This document shows positions 2,741-25,240 of a stretch of DNA of 64,000 nt, piece after piece. The position numbers and the translations under genes were made by a program. Below the pieces are notes generated by a model. It was not told the origin of the DNA and did not search any database. It saw only the letters and a program-made list of their open reading frames with translations. This DNA comes from Modicisalibacter luteus DSM 23508 (lineage in GTDB: Bacteria; Pseudomonadota; Gammaproteobacteria; Pseudomonadales; Halomonadaceae), in NCBI RefSeq assembly GCF_000378505.1, contig NZ_KB899989.1, positions 172,221 through 236,220 on the forward strand. Reading direction: 5' to 3'. Every line of letters starts with the position of its first letter. Position 1 is the stretch's first letter.

Positions 2741-5578
2741 TCAGGCGTTAAAGGCGTCTTCCACCAGTTGGCGCTGCTGTTCGACGTGGACGGACATGTA
2801 ACCTGCGGCAGGTGCCGCCGAGGCCGGACGACCGGCGAACTTGAGTTCGCGGCCCAGGCCTTCCTTGTGCATGTCCGCAGCCACACGCATGTGGTGCTGG
2901 CTCTGGTACCAGGCCCCCTGGTTGAGCGGCTCTTCCTGACACCACACCACCTGCTCCAGGTTGGCGTAGCCCTTGATCGCTTCCAGAAGCTCATCTTTCG
3001 GGAACGGATAGAGCTGCTCAACACGCAGGATGGCCGTATCCTCGCGCTCATTCTCGGTGCGGTAGGCCGCCAGATCGTAGTAGACCTTGCCCGAGCAGAG
3101 GACGACACGCTTAACCTTGTCGGCCTGGAGCTTGCCCTGATCTTCCAACACCATCTGGAAACGGCCGTTGGCCAACTCCTCCAGCGTAGAAGTCGCTTCC
3201 TTGTGGCGCAGCAAACTCTTCGGCGACATCACTACCAACGGCTTGCGCAGCGGGCGAATGACCTGACGACGCAGGAGATGGAAGATCTGCGCCGGAGTGG
3301 TCGGCACACAAACCTGCATGTTGTGTTCGGCACATAGCTGCAGGAAGCGCTCGAGGCGTGCGGAGGAGTGCTCCGGCCCCTGCCCCTCATAACCGTGAGG
3401 CAACAGCATGGTCAGCCCACAGAGACGACCCCACTTCGATTCCCCAGAGGAAATGAACTGGTCGATGACCACCTGAGCGCCGTTGACGAAGTCACCGAAC
3501 TGCGCTTCCCAGATAACCAAAGAGTTCGGCACGGTCGTAGCGTAGCCGTACTCGAAGCCCAGCACGGCTTCTTCCGAGAGGAAGGAATCGCGAATGGTGA
3601 AGCGTGGCTGGCCTTCGCGAATATTCTCCAGTGGAACGTAAGTAGTGCCGTCCTTCTGGTTGTGCACCACAGCATGACGATGCGAGAAGGTACCACGGCC
3701 CGAGTCCTGACCGGTGAGCCGGATCGGATGGCCCTCGTCGAGCAACGTGGCGTAGGCCAGGGTTTCGGCAAAGCCCCAGTTGAGCGCCATGCCGCCAGCA
3801 TGCATCTTGCGGCGGTCTTCATAAATCTTGGCAACCTGACGCTGGACCTGGATACCATCGGGAATTTCGCACATGCGCGCTGCCAACTGCTGCATACGCT
3901 TCATGTCGAAGGAGGTATCGAAATCACCACTCCACTCGTGGCCAAGATAAGGCGTCCAGTCGACGAACAGCTCGGTGTTGGGCTGTTTGACTAGCGCATT
4001 GGCGACGTGATTACCGGCCAGCAAGTCCTCACGGTACTGTTCGACAAGCGCCTTGGCATCATCCTCGGAGAGCACGCCCTCCTTGACCAGGCGTGCCGCA
4101 TAAAGCTCACGGGAACTCTTTTGCGCCTTGATCTTCTGGTACATCATCGGCTGGGTACCGGACGGCTCGTCGGCCTCATTGTGGCCGCGGCGGCGATAGC
4201 ATACCAAGTCGATGACGACGTCCTTGTGGAACTGCTGACGATAGTCGATGGCGACCTGCGCGGCATGTAGCACGGCGTCCGGGTCATCGCCATTGACATG
4301 GAAGATCGGTGCCTGAACCATCTTCGCGATATCGGTCGCATACTCGGTGGAGCGCGTGTCCAACGGATTCGATGTCGTGAACCCTACCTGGTTATTGATC
4401 ACGACACGTACCGTGCCACCCGTCCGATAGCCACGCGTCTGTGACATCTGGAAGGTTTCCATGACCACGCCCTGGCCAGCAAAGGCCGCATCGCCATGGA
4501 TAGTGATCGGCAGCACCTTGTCGCCGTCGGTATCGTCGCGACGATCCTGACGTGCACGCACCGAGCCTTCAACTACCGGTGAGACGATCTCGAGGTGGGA
4601 CGGGTTGAAAGCCAGCGCCAGATGCACCTCACCGCCCGGTGTCATGACGTTGGAGCTGAAACCCTGATGGTACTTGACGTCGCCCGACCCCTTGGTGATG
4701 ACCTTCTTGCCATCGAACTCATCGATCAGCTCTGACGGGCTCTTCCCAAGGATATTAACCAGCAGGTTGAGGCGGCCACGGTGGGCCATGCCGATGACGA
4801 TCTCCTTGGTGCCATAACCGCCGGCACGCTGAATGAGCTCGTCCATCATCGGAATGAAGCTTTCGCCCCCTTCGAGACCGAAACGCTTGGTGCCGGGGTA
4901 CTTGGATGCCAAGTAGCTTTCCAGACCCTCGGCAGCGGTCAATCGCTCGAGTACGTGCTGGCGGACTTCATTGCTGTACTTCGGCTTCGAGCGCACCGAT
5001 TCGAAACGCTGCTGCAACCAGCGCTTCTCTTCGGTATCGACGATGTGCATGAACTCACAACCGATGCTGCGGCAGTAAGTCTGCTCCAGTGCCTCGACGA
5101 TTTCCTTCAGCGGTGCCTTGTCCTTGCCCAGAAAGAAGGAGCCGGTCTGGAACTCGGTGTCCATGTCGGCCTTTGACAACTGGTGGAAGGACAGCTCCAA
5201 GTCCGGAACCGGAACCGGCTTGCGCAGATCGAGCGGATCGATGTTGGCCTTCTGGTGACCACGGAATCGATAGGCGTTGATCAGCTGGAGAACCTTGACC
5301 TGTTTCTTGTTCTCGCCACTGTCGACTGCAGCCACGCCCTGGGTAGCGGTGCGACGGTTGCGTGCCAACTGGTAGAACTGGTCTCGGATCGGACTGAGGG
5401 GAGTATCGTAGGAGGGGCTGCCTTCCGGGCGCGGTAACTGGTCGAAATAGTTACGCCATTCATCCGGAACTTCATTGGGATCGACGAGGTATTGCTCGTA
5501 CAGCGCTTCGACGTAGTGAGCGTTACCGCCACTCACATGCGAGGAGCGCCACATCAACTCCATTATGCCTTCTTGCAT
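2741..5578 (-). CDS. sucA: 2-oxoglutarate dehydrogenase E1 component
   Basis: Thiamine-diphosphate-dependent decarboxylase that starts the 2-oxoglutarate dehydrogenase reaction. About 945 residues, normal for the family. Seen: the TPP/Mg region GDAAFAGQGVV followed by NNQVGFTTSN, and the HRGRLNLL motif of the E1o N-terminal half. The frame stays open to a GTG at 5596, but the ATG at 5578 gives an N-terminus (MQEGIMELMWRSSHVSG) that aligns without gaps with E. coli SucA, so that start is preferred. It is followed by sucB after 42 bp. Two strong hairpins separate it from sdhB upstream. Confidence 0.95.
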   Translation of the reverse strand: MQEGIMELMWRSSHVSGGNAHYVEALYEQYLVDPNEVPDEWRNYFDQLPRPEGSPSYDTPLSPIRDQFYQLARNRRTATQGVAAVDSGENKKQVKVLQLINAYRFRGHQKANIDPLDLRKPVPVPDLELSFHQLSKADMDTEFQTGSFFLGKDKAPLKEIVEALEQTYCRSIGCEFMHIVDTEEKRWLQQRFESVRSKPKYSNEVRQHVLERLTAAEGLESYLASKYPGTKRFGLEGGESFIPMMDELIQRAGGYGTKEIVIGMAHRGRLNLLVNILGKSPSELIDEFDGKKVITKGSGDVKYHQGFSSNVMTPGGEVHLALAFNPSHLEIVSPVVEGSVRARQDRRDDTDGDKVLPITIHGDAAFAGQGVVMETFQMSQTRGYRTGGTVRVVINNQVGFTTSNPLDTRSTEYATDIAKMVQAPIFHVNGDDPDAVLHAAQVAIDYRQQFHKDVVIDLVCYRRRGHNEADEPSGTQPMMYQKIKAQKSSRELYAARLVKEGVLSEDDAKALVEQYREDLLAGNHVANALVKQPNTELFVDWTPYLGHEWSGDFDTSFDMKRMQQLAARMCEIPDGIQVQRQVAKIYEDRRKMHAGGMALNWGFAETLAYATLLDEGHPIRLTGQDSGRGTFSHRHAVVHNQKDGTTYVPLENIREGQPRFTIRDSFLSEEAVLGFEYGYATTVPNSLVIWEAQFGDFVNGAQVVIDQFISSGESKWGRLCGLTMLLPHGYEGQGPEHSSARLERFLQLCAEHNMQVCVPTTPAQIFHLLRRQVIRPLRKPLVVMSPKSLLRHKEATSTLEELANGRFQMVLEDQGKLQADKVKRVVLCSGKVYYDLAAYRTENEREDTAILRVEQLYPFPKDELLEAIKGYANLEQVVWCQEEPLNQGAWYQSQHHMRVAADMHKEGLGRELKFAGRPASAAPAAGYMSVHVEQQRQLVEDAFNA

Positions 5579-6528: not shown

Positions 6529-8301
6529 TCAATAAGTACGGACTTTCGGCTCGAAGGTGTCGACTGTCTTTGGCGAGAAGTTGACTTCACGCTTGCCCAG
6601 CTTCTTCTCCAGCGGGTAGTACGTGGAGTGCTTGAGCCAGTTGACGTCGTCCCGATCCGGATAGTCGTAGCGAGAATGGGCGCCGCGACTTTCCTTGCGC
6701 TCGAGCGCAGAGATAGCGGTCGCTTCGGCCACTTCCAACAGGTTGTCGAGTTCCAGCGCTTCGACACGGGCCGTGTTGAAGGCATTGGATTTGTCGCCCA
6801 GGTGCGCATTGGCGATGCGCTCACGCAGTTCGGCCACTTTCTTGACGCCTTCCTGCATATGATCTTCCTGGCGGAAGACACCGAAGGCTTTTTGCATGGT
6901 TGCCTGCAGCTCGGCGCGTAGCTCGGACACCGATTCGCCACCGCTGGATTCATCCCAGCGATTCATGCGCGCCAATGCGGCATCGACGTCGGACTGGGCG
7001 GCATCCAGGTATTCGATACCTTCGTTGAGGGCGCCTTCGATGAACATGCCGGCAGCACGACCGAACACGACGAGGTCGAGCAGCGAGTTGCCGCCCAGGC
7101 GGTTGGCACCATGTACGGAAACGCAAGCCACTTCACCACAGGCAAATAGGCCGTTGACGACCTCGTCATTGCCGTCGCTGTCCTGCTTTATGACCTGGCC
7201 ATGAACATTGGTGGCCAGGCCACCCATCATGTAGTGACAGGTCGGCACAACCGGGATGGGTTCCTTGGCCGGATCGACGGCAGCGAAGGTCTTGGCCAGC
7301 TCGACGATACCCGGCAAGCGCTTGTGCAACACTTCCTCACCCAGGTGGTCAAGCTTGAGCAGCACGTGGTCGCCGTTCTCGCCGACACCGCGGCCTTCAA
7401 GGATTTCCATGACCATGGAACGGGCCACGACGTCACGACCGGCCAGGTCCTTGGCGTTTGGCGCATAACGCTCCATGAAGCGCTCGCCGTCCTTGTTGAT
7501 CAGGTAGCCACCTTCACCACGGCAGCCTTCGGTGACCAGCACCCCTGCCCCGGCGATACCGGTCGGGTGGAACTGCCACATTTCCATGTCCTGCACCGTG
7601 ACGCCAGCACGCAGCGCCATGCCGACGCCGTCACCAGTATTGATCAGCGCGTTGGTGGTGGACGAGTAGATACGGCCGGCACCGCCGGTCGCCAATACGG
7701 TGGCCTTGGACTTGATGTGCACCACTTCGCCGGTCTCGATGCACAGCGCGATGCAGCCGACCACGTCGCCGTTTGCATTCTTGACCAGATCCACCGCATA
7801 CCACTCGTTAAGGAATACGGTGTTGTTCTTCAGGTTGTTCTGATACAGCGTATGCAGCAGCGCGTGGCCGGTACGGTCGGCTGCGGCACAGGTGCGCGCC
7901 GCCTGGCCGCCCTTCCCGAAGTCCTTGGACTGGCCACCGAACGGACGCTGGTAGATGCGGCCGTTGTCGAAACGCGAGAATGGCAGGCCCATGTGCTCGA
8001 GTTCGAACACCGCTTTTGGGCCCTCAGAACACATGTACTCGGCCGCGTCCTGGTCAGTGATGTAGTCGCCGCCCTTGACGGTATCGTACATGTGCCAGCG
8101 CCAATCATCGTTGGGGTCAGCAGACGCGATGGCACAGGTAATGCCACCCTGTGCGGAAACAGTGTGCGAGCGGGTAGGGAAAACCTTAGAAATGACGGCG
8201 GTTTTCTTGCCGGACTTGGCCAGCTCGAGCGCGGCACGCAGGCCGGAGCCGCCACCACCGATGATGATTGCGTCGAATGTCAGATTACGCATGGTAGACA
8301 T
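6529..8301 (-). CDS. sdhA: Succinate dehydrogenase flavoprotein subunit
   Basis: Catalytic subunit of complex II, oxidising succinate to fumarate. 590 residues, normal length. Seen: the FAD-binding GGGGSG near residues 15-20, the motif [10 protein letters not shown] whose His46 is the covalent FAD attachment site in the family, and the catalytic-region motif HPTGI. It is the third gene in sdhCDAB order on the minus strand, starting only 3 bp after the sdhD stop. Confidence 0.96.
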
Positions 8302-17692: not shown

Positions 17693-17842
17693 TAAAAGAA
17701 GCCCGACCTATCAAGGCCGGGCTTCTTCGTAGCGCCCAATCGCGCCCTGCATCCTGCAGTTCATCTACGAGAATCCTTCTCGGGCATCCTTGGTTCGTCG
17801 AGCATCCTTGCTCGGGTTCCTTAGGACCACTCCCTGCTCACG
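17693..17842 (-). ncRNA. CsrB/RsmZ-type regulatory small RNA (copy A)
   Basis: Predicted minus-strand RNA of about 150 nt. It carries six GGA motifs (TCC on the plus strand at 17752, 17774, 17787, 17805, 17818 and 17831). Three lie in hairpin loops: CTGCATCCTGCAG (17747-17759), CGAGAATCCTTCTCG (17768-17782) and CGAGCATCCTTGCTCG (17799-17814), plus-strand sequences. It ends in the stem 17696-17727 followed by UUUU. A -10-like GATAGT (17849-17854) and a GacA-type palindrome (17898-17915) lie upstream. Repeated A(N)GGA in loops is the hallmark of RNAs that sequester CsrA/RsmA. It is clearly homologous to copy B, with different but still paired stems. Ends are inferred. Confidence 0.85.
17696..17727. 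terminator. Bidirectional terminator of small RNA A and the acidic ORF
   Basis: AAGAAGCCCG pairs with CGGGCTTCTT (17696-17705 with 17718-17727), with an internal CCT/AGG extension. On the minus strand the stem is followed by TTTTATG, fitting the 3' end of the small RNA. Confidence 0.85.
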
Positions 17843-17897: not shown

Positions 17898-17915
17898 TGT
17901 AAGACATTGACTACA
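17898..17915. promoter_or_regulatory. GacA-type upstream activating palindrome of small RNA A
   Basis: TGTAAG-ACATTG-ACTACA on the plus strand (minus: TGTAGT-N6-CTTACA). It matches the GacA box TGTAAG-N6-CTTACA at 10 of 12 positions. Its centre is about 64 bp upstream of the predicted RNA start, the spacing reported for Pseudomonas rsmY/rsmZ-type promoters. Confidence 0.75.
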
Positions 17916-17999: not shown

Positions 18000-18719
18000 C
18001 TAACACTCGATATTTTCGCAATGCAGGTAGTTGGATTTGAAGCCGGCAAATACCTTGAGCCGCTCCCAGTCCAGAATCGTCATGCGCTTGTTACTGAACG
18101 CAATCAGCGCCTCGGAGCGCAGTTTCTGTAGCGTTCGGTTGACATGAACATGAGTCATCCCCATCGAGTTGGCCAGTTCAAGCTGGGACAGTGGCAGATC
18201 GAAGCTGGTATTGTCGGTCAGCCCAGCGATACGTGAACGCAGCAGCATCTCGCAGAATACATGGGCCAGACGCCTGTCAGCGGATCGACTGCCCGCATTG
18301 ACCAGCCATTCGCGAAGTGTCGCCTCGTCGACAAGCGTCGACCAGAATAGAGCCCGCGCAAGGCGGCCATTGCTTTCCATGAGATAGCTGATCTTATGGG
18401 CAGGCAACAAGGCCACCTTCAGTGGGGTCAATGCACGGATAGAGTGGTCCATTTCATTGAGAATCGTGACGTGCACGTCGCACAGATCACCAGGAATGAG
18501 GTAGGCCATGATGTGGTTATTGCCATTTCCCAGCGATTTGTATCGGCACGCCCAGCCTTCTTCAACCAGATGAACAGCATCCGGTCGCTGGCCCTCGCTA
18601 ATGATGTCTTGCCCTTTTCGATAGTTCTTTCTAATAATGGCTGCGTTTTCTATAGAGCGCTTTTCTTCGTCCGTTAACTCTATGAAATTATTAAGCTTAT
18701 TGAGCAAATTAGCTGTCAC
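18000..18719 (-). CDS. Crp/Fnr-family transcriptional regulator
   Basis: 239 residues: an N-terminal cyclic-nucleotide-binding fold (about 20-135, with RKGQDIISEGQRPDAVHLVEEG) and a C-terminal winged HTH (about 165-225, recognition region SMGMTHVHVNRTLQKLRSE). There is no FNR-type N-terminal cysteine cluster, so it is not an oxygen-sensing FNR. It also lacks the typical cAMP-site signature. The effector and targets are unknown. It is divergent from the DJ-1/PfpI gene with 279 bp between. Confidence 0.85.
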   Translation of the reverse strand: MTANLLNKLNNFIELTDEEKRSIENAAIIRKNYRKGQDIISEGQRPDAVHLVEEGWACRYKSLGNGNNHIMAYLIPGDLCDVHVTILNEMDHSIRALTPLKVALLPAHKISYLMESNGRLARALFWSTLVDEATLREWLVNAGSRSADRRLAHVFCEMLLRSRIAGLTDNTSFDLPLSQLELANSMGMTHVHVNRTLQKLRSEALIAFSNKRMTILDWERLKVFAGFKSNYLHCENIEC

Positions 18720-20325: not shown

Positions 20326-20679
20326 ATGGCAGACGATAAGCGTAACCAAGGAAACATGAGCGTAAACGAAGCTGGCAAGAAAGGCGGCGAAGCCACTTCA
20401 GAATCTCATGGTAAGGAGTTCTACGAAGATATTGGCCATAAAGGTGGTCAGAGTAGTGGTGGCAACTTCAAGAATGATCCCGAGCGTGCTGCTGAAGCAG
20501 GCCACAAAGGTGGTCAGAATAGTGGCGGTAACTTCGCCAACGACCCTGAAAAGGCCTCCGAGGCTGGCCAGAAAGGCGGCAAGCAAAGTGGCGGTAACTT
20601 CGCAAACGATCGCGAGAAAGCCTCTGAAGCTGGCAAGAAAGGCGGCGAGCATAGCCATGGTGGAGGCCGTAACTCCTAA
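20326..20679 (+). CDS. KGG-repeat stress-induced protein (YciG/GsiB-like)
   Basis: 117 residues, strongly hydrophilic, built of tandem repeats of the type GHKGGQNSGGNFANDPEKA. At least four repeats are visible, each centred on a KGG motif. Proteins of this family are small, hydrophilin-like and induced by general stress or stationary phase; their molecular role is unclear. The start follows AAGGAGAG. It has its own terminator and converges with small RNA B. Confidence 0.88.
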   Translation: MADDKRNQGNMSVNEAGKKGGEATSESHGKEFYEDIGHKGGQSSGGNFKNDPERAAEAGHKGGQNSGGNFANDPEKASEAGQKGGKQSGGNFANDREKASEAGKKGGEHSHGGGRNS

Positions 20680-20775: not shown

Positions 20776-20799
20776 TAGAGTAGTTAGGTCCATCTACGC

Positions 20800-20967
20800 T
20801 TGGATGGAGCTCGGCCTGTAGAGACCGAGCTCCGTAACGCTACACAGCGCCATGCATCCTGCATCTCTCCATGAGCATCCTGCTCATGCGTCCTTGGTAA
20901 TTTGAGCATCCTTGCCCAGGTTCCTTTGATGAGTTCATCCATGAACGCAAGACCACTATGCCCTGTC
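20800..20967 (-). ncRNA. CsrB/RsmZ-type regulatory small RNA (copy B)
   Basis: Predicted minus-strand RNA of about 165 nt with seven GGA motifs upstream of its 3' stem (plus-strand TCC at 20857, 20868, 20878, 20891, 20909, 20922 and 20938). Clear loop examples are ATGCATCCTGCAT (20852-20864) and ATGAGCATCCTGCTCAT (20871-20887), plus-strand sequences. The 3' end probably uses the stem 20806-20814 with 20825-20833 (GGAGCTCGG/CCGAGCTCC), although a U-run is lacking. A -10-like TATATA is at 20974-20979 and a perfect GacA palindrome at 21027-21044. It aligns along its length with copy A; arm changes preserve pairing. Exact ends are inferred. Confidence 0.82.
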
Positions 20968-21026
20968 TCAGCGTATATACAATTAACCCATGCGAACACA
21001 AGACGTAGGGAATAACAGGATAAAAT

Positions 21027-21044
21027 TGTAAGAAAAAGCTTACA
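21027..21044. promoter_or_regulatory. Perfect GacA-type palindrome of small RNA B
   Basis: TGTAAG-AAAAAG-CTTACA, a perfect match to the GacA upstream activating sequence. Its centre is about 68 bp upstream of the predicted start of small RNA B. Confidence 0.82.
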
Positions 21045-21065
21045 GAAGGTAGGCGGATTAGGAAG

Positions 21066-21101
21066 ATAGAGAAAAAATAAGCCCCGGCTATCGGCCGGGG
21101 C
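21066..21101 (-). terminator. Intrinsic terminator downstream of the SRAP gene
   Basis: On the minus strand, GCCCCGGC pairs with GCCGGGGC (8 bp, arms 21094-21101 and 21081-21088), followed by TTATTTTTTC. It lies about 150 bp beyond the SRAP stop and insulates the small RNA B promoter. Confidence 0.8.
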
Positions 21102-21252
21102 AAAAGACAGTGACGTAGAGCTATGACGAACCTGCAAGGAATGCAGGACGAGTAAAAAAGACGTCACACCAACACCCTAACAGGAGGCCTCATGTACAAA
21201 TCGTTGAATAAGCCTATTTTGTGACGCTATTTTACCATTCGGTGTCTCATCG

Positions 21253-21909
21253 TTACGCTGGATTGATTAGCGACTCGTCGCCCGCCCCACTTGGCCGGTT
21301 TACCTTAGTGCTGACCGGCCAGTGCGTAATCAGCTTGGCATTGAGGTGATGCACTACGTTGCGTAGGGTCTCGCGATCGGTCAGGTCAACGTCGAGCCAA
21401 GGCTCCAGACTTTCGTCGTCCAGAATCAGCGGCATGCGGTCATGTATGTCTTGGGCGGAGCCCCGGGCAGGCTCGGTGATGATGGCACAGCCCAGGGAGC
21501 CGTCCTCGCGCTCGGTATAGATACCTGCGAAATAAATCGGCTCTCGGTCCTCCCGACAAATGAAATGAGGCTGCTTGGGTGAGGCGGCCTTGTCCCATTC
21601 ATACCACCCATCGGCGGGTATAAGACAGCGGTGCTTCTGGAAGGAAGATTTGAAATAGCCTGACGTGGCCACCGTCTCGACCCTGGCATTGATCGGCTGG
21701 CTCGCCTTGCCCTTCGCCCACTTCGGCTTGTACCCCCACCATAGTTCATCCATGTGTGGCGGCTCATCACCCGACATGCGCCGTATCGCCGTGATCCAGG
21801 TGCCAGGCGGCACGTTGTAACGCGGGGCCGGCTCACCCTCAACGGTAGATATCCCTACTTTCGTCGCAAACTTGGGGTAGGCACTATATAACGCGAAACG
21901 GCCGCACAT
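21253..21909 (-). CDS. SRAP-domain protein (YedK/HMCES type)
   Basis: Single-domain SOS-response-associated peptidase/AP-site sensor of 218 residues. Members form a DNA-protein crosslink to abasic sites through the N-terminal cysteine. Seen: MCGRF with Cys2 next to the initiator Met, PRYNVPPG, the DGWYEWD segment with the conserved Glu, and HDRMPLIL with the conserved His. It is close to, and divergent from, the LexA-controlled umuDC operon, consistent with a DNA-damage role. Confidence 0.93.
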   Translation of the reverse strand: MCGRFALYSAYPKFATKVGISTVEGEPAPRYNVPPGTWITAIRRMSGDEPPHMDELWWGYKPKWAKGKASQPINARVETVATSGYFKSSFQKHRCLIPADGWYEWDKAASPKQPHFICREDREPIYFAGIYTEREDGSLGCAIITEPARGSAQDIHDRMPLILDDESLEPWLDVDLTDRETLRNVVHHLNAKLITHWPVSTKVNRPSGAGDESLINPA

Positions 21910-22300: not shown

Positions 22301-22735
22301 ATGTCGCCACTCATCCATGCCGAGCTTGCACCGCCGCCGCTCGCCCTGCCGTTTCCCGAGACGCTCATCCGCGCGGGTTTGAGCGGGTTTCCCAGCCCCG
22401 CGCAGGATTACGAAGGCCGCACGCTGGATCTCAACGAACGACTGATCAAGCGTCCCTCTGCCACGTTCTTCATGCAGGTGGTCGGTGACAGTATGGTCAA
22501 GTTCGGCATGCAGGATGGCGACATTCTGGTCGTGGACCGCTCAATAGAACCCCGTCCTGGACAAATCCTCGCCGCACTGGTCGATGGCGAAGTGATCGTC
22601 AAGCGCTACGAGATCATAGGCAACCGCCCTTATCTCTGCTCCGGTAACTCCCGTTATGCCCCCATCCCCCTCGGTGACAACGAGTGCCAAGTCTGGGGTG
22701 TCGTCCGTTCGGTGATCCACGAGTATCCGGTGTGA
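22301..22735 (+). CDS. umuD: Error-prone repair protein UmuD
   Basis: S24-family self-cleaving accessory subunit of DNA polymerase V; 144 residues. Catalytic Ser64 in VGDSM and Lys101 in GEVIVKRY are present. The segment LSGFPSPAQDY aligns with the E. coli cleavage region CGFPSPAADY, so cleavage at S28-G29 is likely. The ATG at 22301 follows AGGAG and a LexA box. The TGA is two bases before the umuC ATG. Confidence 0.93.
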   Translation: MSPLIHAELAPPPLALPFPETLIRAGLSGFPSPAQDYEGRTLDLNERLIKRPSATFFMQVVGDSMVKFGMQDGDILVVDRSIEPRPGQILAALVDGEVIVKRYEIIGNRPYLCSGNSRYAPIPLGDNECQVWGVVRSVIHEYPV

Positions 22736-22737
22736 CC

Positions 22738-24018
22738 ATGATTGGCCTTGTCGATTGCAATAACTTCTACGTGAGCTGTGAGCGGGCATTCCGGCCGGAT
22801 CTCGAAGGTCGCCCCGTCGGGGTACTGTCAAACAACGACGGCTGTGTTATCGCTCGCTCGACTGAGCTGAAAGCGCTGGGCGTAGAGATGGGCGCCCCTG
22901 CATTTCAGCTCAAGCACCTGAGTCATAACCGCGGCGTAGTACTGCTTTCCAGCAACTATGAGCTTTATGGCGACATGTCCTCCCGTGTGCAGTCCGTGCT
23001 CGAGGAGTTCGCACCGCAGGTGGAGCCCTATTCCATCGATGAAATGTTTGTACGCTTCGACGGCTTCGAGACAGCGGCGCTGACCACGCATTGTCGGAAG
23101 CTACGCCAGCAAGTGCGCCAGTTCACCGGCATCCCGGTTTCCATTGGTGTTGCCCCAACCCGAACGCTCTCCAAACTTGCCAATTGCGCTGCCAAGAAGA
23201 TTCCCGGTTATGGCGGTGTATGTGTACTGGATCGCGACAGCACGACCACCAAGGGCCTGCTGCAGCGGGTCGAGCTGGGGGATATCTGGGGCGTGGGTCG
23301 GCGCCTCATCGAACGCCTGCATACTATGGGGATTCGCTCGGCATGGGACCTGCGTAACACCGATCCCAGGCAGATCCGCCGCAAGTTCAGCGTGACGCTG
23401 GAACGCACCGTGCTCGAACTGCAAGGCACCCCCTGCATCGAAATGAATGATTTTGATGAACCCAGGCAGCGCATCATGACCAGTCGCTCGTTTGGCAAGC
23501 TCACCGGCAATTATCAGGAGGTTCAGGAAGCCATTCGTCAACACGGCCAGCGCGGCGCTGAAAAGCTCCGCCAGCAAGGCAGCCTGGCCCGGGCCGTGCT
23601 CGTCTTTCTCAAGACCAACCCGCACCGCCCTGACCTGCCCCAGTATTCGCCCAGCTTAATCGTCGAGCTGGAACACCCTACCGACGACAGCCGCCCGATC
23701 CTGCACGCAGCCAGTCAGGCGCTGCAGCGTATTTTCCTGCCCCGCTTTGCCTATATGAAGGCTGGCGTAATGCTGCTCGACCTGGTCGATGCCAACCGGC
23801 AGCAGCTTTCGCTGCTCGACACGCCTCAGAGCGCCACCGATCGCACACGGAGCGAAAGGCTGATGGCGACCATGGATGCGCTGAACCAGAAGATGGGGCG
23901 CGGTACGCTAAGATTGGGCATGCCGACAGAGGGCGCGGCCTGGCACCTGCGCTGCGCCAATCGCACACCGCGATGGTCCACGCGATGGGAGGAGATTCCC
24001 AAGGTGAGAGTGCTTTAA
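22738..24018 (+). CDS. umuC: DNA polymerase V catalytic subunit UmuC
   Basis: Y-family translesion polymerase of 426 residues. Seen: the metal-binding IGLVDCNNFYVSCER at the N-terminus, PYSIDEMFV with the catalytic Asp-Glu pair, the helix-hairpin-helix region WGVGRRLIERL and the UmuC C-terminal domain. The ATG at 22738 is coupled to umuD and matches the usual UmuC N-terminus. Confidence 0.95.
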   Translation: MIGLVDCNNFYVSCERAFRPDLEGRPVGVLSNNDGCVIARSTELKALGVEMGAPAFQLKHLSHNRGVVLLSSNYELYGDMSSRVQSVLEEFAPQVEPYSIDEMFVRFDGFETAALTTHCRKLRQQVRQFTGIPVSIGVAPTRTLSKLANCAAKKIPGYGGVCVLDRDSTTTKGLLQRVELGDIWGVGRRLIERLHTMGIRSAWDLRNTDPRQIRRKFSVTLERTVLELQGTPCIEMNDFDEPRQRIMTSRSFGKLTGNYQEVQEAIRQHGQRGAEKLRQQGSLARAVLVFLKTNPHRPDLPQYSPSLIVELEHPTDDSRPILHAASQALQRIFLPRFAYMKAGVMLLDLVDANRQQLSLLDTPQSATDRTRSERLMATMDALNQKMGRGTLRLGMPTEGAAWHLRCANRTPRWSTRWEEIPKVRVL

Positions 24019-24025
24019 GTAAACG

Positions 24026-24046
24026 CCCCGGCATTCCTTGCCGGGG
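24026..24046. terminator. umuC terminator
   Basis: A perfect 8-bp stem CCCCGGCA/TGCCGGGG with TTCCT loop, followed by TCTT on the plus strand. On the minus strand the loop reads AGGAA and the tail is CGTTTACTT, so it could also end a leftward RNA. Confidence 0.65.
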
Positions 24047-24127
24047 TCTTGCAGCCAGGCGTCCTACCCCAGAGCCAATGCTACGTGTTTTGCAGCGGGC
24101 AAAAATGAGTCAAATTGCTCGTTGTGA

Positions 24128-24145
24128 TGTAAGCCATTGCTTACA
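24128..24145. promoter_or_regulatory. Third GacA-type palindrome, upstream of the NYN/cold-shock gene
   Basis: TGTAAG-CCATTG-CTTACA is a perfect match to the GacA box. Rightward, -10-like TAATAT (24174-24179) precedes the NYN gene. Leftward, TAGCAT (24078-24083) could start a very short RNA at about 24071 with two GGA motifs, ending in the stem 24026-24046. The direction of action cannot be decided by eye. Otherwise 24047-24340 shows no gene. Confidence 0.65.
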
Positions 24146-24340: not shown

Positions 24341-25240
24341 ATGGCAAACACCGGCAAGGCCTTGACGCGCATCGGCGTCTTCTACGATGGCAACTACTTC
24401 TTCCACGTCAGCAACTATTACCAGTATGAACATCCGCGCAATGCACGCATCGGTATCTCAGGGTTGCATGATTTCATACGCCAGCGAGTAGCCTCTGAGG
24501 AGTCACTGGATCCCAACTACTGCCAAGTGGTAGATGCGCATTACTTCCGAGGGCGCCTGAGCGCCGAAGACGCTGAGAAACGTGACGTGCTGCTCAAGGA
24601 GCGCAAATTCGACGATGCGTTGATGCATGCCGGCGTTACCACCCACTACCTGCCGTTGGGTGCAGAAGGCGAGAAGGGCATCGATGTATGGCTGGCCTTG
24701 GAAGTGTACGAGCTGGCCTTTTACAAGCGCTTCGACATGGTGGTACTGATCGCTGGTGACGGCGACTTCCTGCCATTGGTCCGCAAGCTCAATACGCTGG
24801 GCATCAAGGTCATGCTGCTTGCCTGGGATTTTCGCTTTAAAGATAACCGGGGCAGCGTACGTGAGACGCGAACTGCCCAGGCGTTGCTCAATGCCGTGAC
24901 CTATCCAGTGCTTATGCATCAGGTGATTGATGACCGCACCCTGCGCAACGATCGCACCATTGACAACCTGTTCCTCTCCCGCGGGGTGAAGCCCGCCCCG
25001 GCCAGAGACTCATACGCTGATCAGGGCGATAACGGAGCGGCCCGCTATGGCACGGTGCACCACGTCAAGGATGGGTTCGGCTTCATTACCCCAGAAACCG
25101 GCGAAGACAACCTATTTTTCTTTTCCGGCGACGTAGTGAATACCGACTTCGAAGCTCTCAAGGCCGGAGACCCAGTAAGCTTTGAGATCGGGGCAAACGA
25201 TAGAGGGCCGTGTGCGGTCAGTGTGTCGCTGAGACGCTAA
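24341..25240 (+). CDS. NYN-domain (PIN-like) RNase fused to a cold-shock domain
   Basis: 299 residues. N-terminal NYN/LabA-like nuclease domain (about 8-185) with acidic residues in VFYDGNYFF (Asp16), KGIDVWLALE and LIAGDGDFLPLVRKL, the metal-binding positions of the family. A short linker leads to a C-terminal cold-shock domain (about 236-299) with the RNA-binding DGFGFITP and NLFFF. The architecture suggests an RNA-targeting endoribonuclease; the substrate is unknown. A perfect GacA palindrome lies about 200 bp upstream. The 3' end abuts the integrase remnant. Confidence 0.85.
   Translation: MANTGKALTRIGVFYDGNYFFHVSNYYQYEHPRNARIGISGLHDFIRQRVASEESLDPNYCQVVDAHYFRGRLSAEDAEKRDVLLKERKFDDALMHAGVTTHYLPLGAEGEKGIDVWLALEVYELAFYKRFDMVVLIAGDGDFLPLVRKLNTLGIKVMLLAWDFRFKDNRGSVRETRTAQALLNAVTYPVLMHQVIDDRTLRNDRTIDNLFLSRGVKPAPARDSYADQGDNGAARYGTVHHVKDGFGFITPETGEDNLFFFSGDVVNTDFEALKAGDPVSFEIGANDRGPCAVSVSLRR

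Follow-up and report, generated by a model that had tools for sequence, protein, structure and literature searches.

A minus-strand locus, referred to as copy B, in the 64-kb window analysed here (the whole stretch of DNA under study, C1:172221-236220, from a genome of 4.53 Mb in 42 contigs) is, with a probability of roughly 0.85, the gene for a CsrB/RsmZ-type small RNA under the control of GacA, and one of 18 loci that would act as a pooled CsrA-titrating system. Copy B is a credible RNA gene of this type, every function assigned to it being a prediction. Taken alone it is one more member of the CsrB/RsmZ type, and it is the 18-locus family with its linked csrA genes that deserves attention. 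The first-pass annotation had proposed a CsrB/RsmZ-type RNA downstream of a GacA box, arisen by local duplication of a neighbouring locus, copy A; the box, the compensatory structure and the presence of GacA/UvrY and csrA genes in the genome bear out the former, whereas the duplication found no such backing.

Sequence elements and structure of copy B

On the minus strand, copy B comprises in order the box, a TATATA element, the predicted RNA with its seven GGA motifs and a terminal hairpin (Table 1). The perfect TGTAAG-N6-CTTACA palindrome reported earlier was confirmed. The 4.53-Mb genome has three other perfect sites; of the four, three (at B, C4a and C12) are located 112-118 nt upstream of a family core. 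The palindrome had been placed about 68 bp upstream of TATATA; the actual distance is 59 bp from centre to centre, with 68-69 bp fitting the implied start site.

Table 1. Features of copies A and B and of adjoining genes, in window coordinates
Feature	Position	Strand	Basis or remark
Perfect GacA-box palindrome TGTAAG-N6-CTTACA, copy B	21027..21044	-	TGTAAGAAAAAGCTTACA; predicted GacA site
-10-like TATATA, copy B	20974..20979	-	
Predicted RNA of copy B, ~160 nt	20806..20966	-	Putative start and end
Conserved core, copy B	20853..20926	-	Covariance models R1 and R2
Central GGA hairpin CATGAGC-AGGAT-GCTCATG, copy B	20870..20888	-	Compensatory changes across family
Terminal hairpin, G+C-rich, without U-tract, copy B	20806..20833	-	Sequence and terminator scan
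GacA-box-like site with 2 mismatches, copy A	17898..17915	-	Box scan
Conserved core, copy A	17748..17822	-	94.4 bits with R1 (training row)
Intrinsic terminator with U-tract, copy A	17696..17727	-	Terminator scan
Crp/Fnr-type regulator gene adjoining copy A	18000..18719	-	Pfam HTH_Crp_2 and cNMP_binding
KGG-repeat gene, convergent with copy B	20326..20679	+	Pfam KGG
SRAP gene upstream of copy B	21253..21909	-	Pfam SRAP

The position of the box is a property of the family. A box with three mismatches or fewer was found within 160 nt upstream of 39 of 64 loci from seven genomes, compared with 5.8% of dinucleotide shuffles. This test drew on the source genome and six further members of its genus and used 64 of their 70 matches, five matches inside RNAs already counted and the weak L097:6358 (24 bits) having been dropped. 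In the source genome the same measure was satisfied by 12 of 19 rows, these being the 18 loci plus the weak L099:8136, which was kept. Two further copies have boxes with 4 mismatches that sit where the family would place them, at -96 and -97, so that a GacA-box-like site is present 93-118 nt upstream of the core in 14 of the 18 loci; none was seen in the scan upstream of C24b, C11, C5 or C17a. Averaged over the sequences downstream of the 14 boxes, the -10 score is highest at an offset of 43, with a value of 2.86 compared with 0.64 to 2.22 elsewhere between 25 and 59; this maximum is 4 nt nearer the box than the TATATA of copy B (offset 47). A GacA/UvrY box precedes the putative promoter, and is perfect in B, C4a and C12.

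The count of seven GGA motifs ahead of the terminal hairpin (seven in 129 nt) was likewise borne out. Among 4816 windows of the same length elsewhere in the 64 kb the mean is 1.7 and 0.15% reach seven. However, shuffles of copy B that keep its composition have a mean of 3.8, with 4.2% reaching seven (P 0.042), and the six motifs of copy A are reached by 13% of such shuffles (P 0.13). Since base composition explains part of it, the GGA count by itself is weak evidence and not decisive, and spacing, pairing and the box carry the argument.

With regard to pairing, the first-pass annotation had described hairpin arms that differ between copies while remaining paired, and covariation in homologous loci had been set beforehand as a test. 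Such covariation was found by pair counts in both alignments examined. In 12 cores from three genomes, 7 of 15 pairs show double-sided change and 89.4% of cells are paired, against 82.7% in shuffles and 25-38% with slid partners; further pair types were matched by 53 of 500 shuffles. In the 18 copies of the source genome, aligned with MAFFT without reference to structure and counted against shuffled and slid controls, every one of the seven central-helix pairs has changed on both sides, and pairing holds in 94.4% of cells, against 83.3% in shuffles and 21-45% with a slid partner. None of 500 shuffles reached the observed values for cells paired, pairs changed, cells changed or covariation score, and 22 of 500 reached that for further pair types; relatedness can inflate these shuffle results, and the central helix was taken from copy B itself, which favours it over its slid versions. 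In copy B paired stems flank GGA as judged from covariation, in keeping with the several looped or unpaired GGA motifs expected of CsrB/RsmZ-type RNAs, and its central stem is complete (7 of 7 pairs). The weaker points are the composition shuffles and the single fold of copy B, in which minimum-energy prediction forms hairpins at the second and last GGA loops and does not form the central hairpin.

A 127-codon open frame with a GTG start (20784-21167) spans copy B, which, together with a GGA count only mildly above shuffles, could be taken to mean that the region is a small coding gene or an unrelated repeat in which GGA motifs and palindrome coincide by chance. This is scarcely credible, given that the double-sided changes fall in stems and that the box recurs at the family distance. 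A protein-coding copy B was rejected: the core varies by single-base indels, from 73 to 77 nt over 12 rows, such that any shared reading frame is broken.

An intrinsic terminator is expected of CsrB/RsmZ-type RNAs, and copy B has a terminal hairpin followed by AUCCAAGCG in place of a U-tract. Scanning from the core start revealed a hairpin with a T-run at 84-203 nt in 14 of the 18 loci, one at 212 nt in C17b and a weak one in C17a; none was found for C4a, and none before 386 nt for copy B. Conceivably, then, copy B, with the convergent KGG gene ending on the opposite strand some 130 nt beyond it, reads on into that gene and is chiefly its antisense regulator as opposed to a CsrA sponge; C4b likewise adjoins a convergent KGG relative. 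Nevertheless, a normal terminator separates C4b from its KGG gene, and the conserved part of copy B is the GGA core, common to copies with no KGG gene found nearby, making the antisense reading very improbable. Separately, a terminator-like hairpin is present on the minus strand at 21073-21148, just upstream of the copy B box. A sub-threshold Rfam match to anti-hemB (RF02837) at this position (29.7 bits, threshold 49.5) was set aside as a likely chance hairpin match.

An RNA family in the source genome and the Halomonadaceae

BLASTN searches with copy B reached only 3 of 14 genomes of the genus at E ≤ 0.001, the source genome included, and covariance models were therefore employed. The first, R1, was built from 12 cores, five of them from the source genome (A, B, C4a, C4b and C12). 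In that genome it gave 26 matches with the cut-off at E ≤ 10, of which 19 remain at E ≤ 0.01 and merge to 18 distinct loci at E ≤ 0.0034, 13 of these loci being outside the training set. The loci are distributed over contigs C1 (three), C2, C4 (two), C5, C7 (two), C9, C11, C12, C17 (two), C24 (two) and C32 (two). A second model, R2, with 71 training rows including 17 of these 18 loci, gave 22 matches at E ≤ 0.01; 20 of them cover the same set of 18, and the other two, which are weak, were left out. In arriving at the count for this genome, C32:6737 was merged into C32:6860 and C7:174165 into C7:174094, whereas C4:333724 (22.7 bits, E 0.05), C5:257135 and C7:78684 (26-27 bits) were excluded. 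The core of copy B scores 88.3 bits with R1 and 81.2 bits with R2, being a training row of both.

Among 250 genomes of the family, 106 had R1 matches at E ≤ 0.01 and 125 had R2 matches at E ≤ 0.001, so that the models offer an annotation route for these RNAs. Counted as matches and not as genes, with 19 candidates scored per genome, the source genome has the most R2 matches (at least 19), followed by G012 (14), G007 (13), G123 (11) and G135, G154 and G212 (10 each); matching genomes of genus g11 have 1 to 4. With laxer filters, 20 of 38 relatives matched at E ≤ 0.01, the figure for those outside the family being 2 of 13. The Rfam models gave scores below their gathering thresholds: copy B scored 18.6 bits against 44 with PrrB_RsmZ (RF00166), and the csrA-adjacent copy and C4b scored 28.3 and 22 bits against 57 with RsmY (RF00195). 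The copies are for this reason not filed in those families, and are regarded only as working like them.

Two of the loci are carried by C32 (L093), a contig of 9,814 bp that is probably a plasmid, as judged from a Rep3 replication initiator, an integrase, a resolvase and a 32-bp terminal overlap; megablast of the whole contig against a plasmid collection returned no match. Upstream of one of its family RNAs, on the same strand, is another GGA-hairpin array, matched by neither model.

csrA genes and comparison with known systems

Both protein partners of such a system are encoded in the source genome. A GacA/UvrY orthologue is located at C4:338244 (290.5 bits against a curated cut-off of 280, the one match above the cut-off), and there are three csrA genes, two of them in tandem on C12. 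On this contig (L091, 5045-5860) csrA-2 and a family RNA are divergently oriented on either side of a perfect box, and csrA-3 is preceded by a box with one mismatch, the boxes being 65 and 69 nt from the respective start codons. The arrangement of csrA beside a family RNA recurs in two related species. Genome G007 has the gene layout of C12; a box with two mismatches precedes csrA-3 by 68 nt, and none of two mismatches or fewer lies between csrA-2 and the RNA. In G012 a single csrA and a family RNA are divergently oriented, and the intervening box has two mismatches and is 68 nt from the start codon.

Across the 250 genomes, nine have at least two csrA genes, 239 have one and two have none. 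Extra csrA genes occur in 4 of 10 genomes with eight or more RNA matches against 5 of 240 others (Fisher p 1.5e-4). However, three of the four are sister species, reducing the association to about two independent cases, and genus g20, with up to 11 RNA matches and a single csrA, argues against a strict link between the RNAs and csrA.

The preferred reading of these data is as follows. GacA is predicted to bind the palindrome of copy B, and transcription would start near 20966 to give an RNA that would offer its GGA motifs to CsrA dimers, drawing them off target mRNAs. The 18 copies and three csrA genes would form one pooled CsrA-titrating system, in which the 14 boxed copies might be expected to rise jointly once GacA is active, while the four copies for which no box was seen would answer to other signals. 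A more elaborate version, put forward tentatively and perhaps less probable than not, is a distributed Csr network in which 18 sponge genes (most boxed and some not, four near Crp/Fnr genes, two on a plasmid), one of them sharing its GacA box with a duplicated csrA, would sum many signals as one pool of free CsrA, sponge and target having expanded together. The 18 loci, together with 13 and 14 matches in two sister species, render two questions testable: what maintains several sponges that seem redundant, and whether additional sponges evolve along with additional csrA copies.

Halomonas anticariensis, a halophile with GacS-GacA and CsrA, belongs to the same family as the source organism. The RNA partner of its Gac system is entered as 'Unknown' in a table from 2020 (PMC7366521). 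Among the titles and abstract openings listed in a literature search, which leaves subscription papers mostly outside and does not show absence from print, none describes such RNAs in the Halomonadaceae.

Csr/Rsm systems in the papers cited here have two to eight titrating RNAs (PMC4824345, PMC3171408, PMC8523701, PMC7366521). As there described, Azotobacter vinelandii has RsmZ1-7 and RsmY (PMC4824345) and Pseudomonas syringae has RsmX1-5, RsmY and RsmZ (PMC7366521). The present RNAs resemble the A. vinelandii set and Pseudomonas RsmX, RsmY and RsmZ in being short, multicopy, equipped with several GGA hairpins and, by prediction in the present case, GacA-dependent. They differ in number, with 18 loci against eight in A. 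vinelandii and seven in P. syringae, and in their sub-threshold Rfam RsmZ and RsmY scores. In Shewanella oneidensis the box TGTAAGN6CTTACA similarly lies upstream of the GGA-rich, close-set CsrB1 and CsrB2 (PMC3171408), although there are two RNAs there and the likeness is one of description and not of alignment. CsrB and CsrC homologues of Marinomonas mediterranea were predicted on the strength of ANGGA motifs and a GacA box; their levels fell in mutants of PpoS and of PpoR, and loss of these regulators raises csrA1 expression (PMC8523701). This system, again likened by description and not by alignment, has two RNAs, whereas here the extra csrA genes have upstream boxes of their own.

Origin of copy B and its gene neighbourhood

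Copies A and B had been regarded as a paralogous pair aligning along their whole length. Their cores are related, but the two are members of a set of 18 and not simply a pair, copy B lacks the U-tract of copy A, and alignment is confined to the core of about 80 nt (79% by BLASTN), the 5' leaders aligning poorly. A FastTree analysis of 43 copies from three species, with about 260 nt per copy and poorly supported deep branches, placed copy A in a clade with counterparts from the two other species (support 1.0). Similar groupings with counterparts were obtained for C11, C5, C32b and the C2/C17b pair (1.0 each), and for C4b and C12 (0.97 each); those of A, C4b, C12, C11, C5 and the C2/C17b pair come from both other species and those of C32b from one. 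Copy B stands alone on a long branch, and neither sister species has a clear counterpart of it. Pairwise scores are 128 for B and A and 133 for B and a copy from another species, against 314 and 304 for A and its counterparts. The tree does not support a recent local duplication from A to B. Exchange between loci may have taken place.

The long branch, the want of a clear sister-species counterpart and the missing U-tract would also suit a copy B that is decaying or silent and gives no defined working RNA of its own, the family as such being real and functional. Against this, the box is perfect, the central stem retains all of its pairs and the R1 score of the core is high, albeit for a training row, and decay is considered unlikely.

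An older local origin may still hold, since the nearest named relative found, Modicisalibacter xianhensis (L022), has four family RNAs within 3 kb around the same Crp/Fnr gene, the product of which is 81% identical to that encoded between copies A and B. In this species (L022, 4298-8300) there are two SRAP genes with a family RNA after each, and the position that B would hold, following the SRAP gene, is taken by a C4b-type copy. Family cores are present at 5270-5345 and 8215-8289 in both L022 and genome G012, which is taken to be M. xianhensis. Four of the 18 copies (A, C1c, C11 and C7b) have a Crp/Fnr gene no more than 500 bp away, compared with 0.11 expected at random (p 6e-6), an expectation based on 16 HTH_Crp_2 matches above 50 bits in the genome and on a 500-bp limit chosen after the neighbours were seen. 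The four genes are the window gene at 18000-18719 and those in L094, L096 and L098, and in three of the four cases the Crp/Fnr gene is convergent with the RNA.

The fourth perfect GacA box of the genome is also in the window, at 24128-24145, flanked by a umuC-like gene (22684-24018) on one side and an NYN/cold-shock gene (24341-25240) on the other, and neither R1 nor R2 has a match there. Downstream of it on the minus strand is a short stretch with two GGA motifs, one of them carried in the loop of a strong hairpin rich in G+C (24018-24080).
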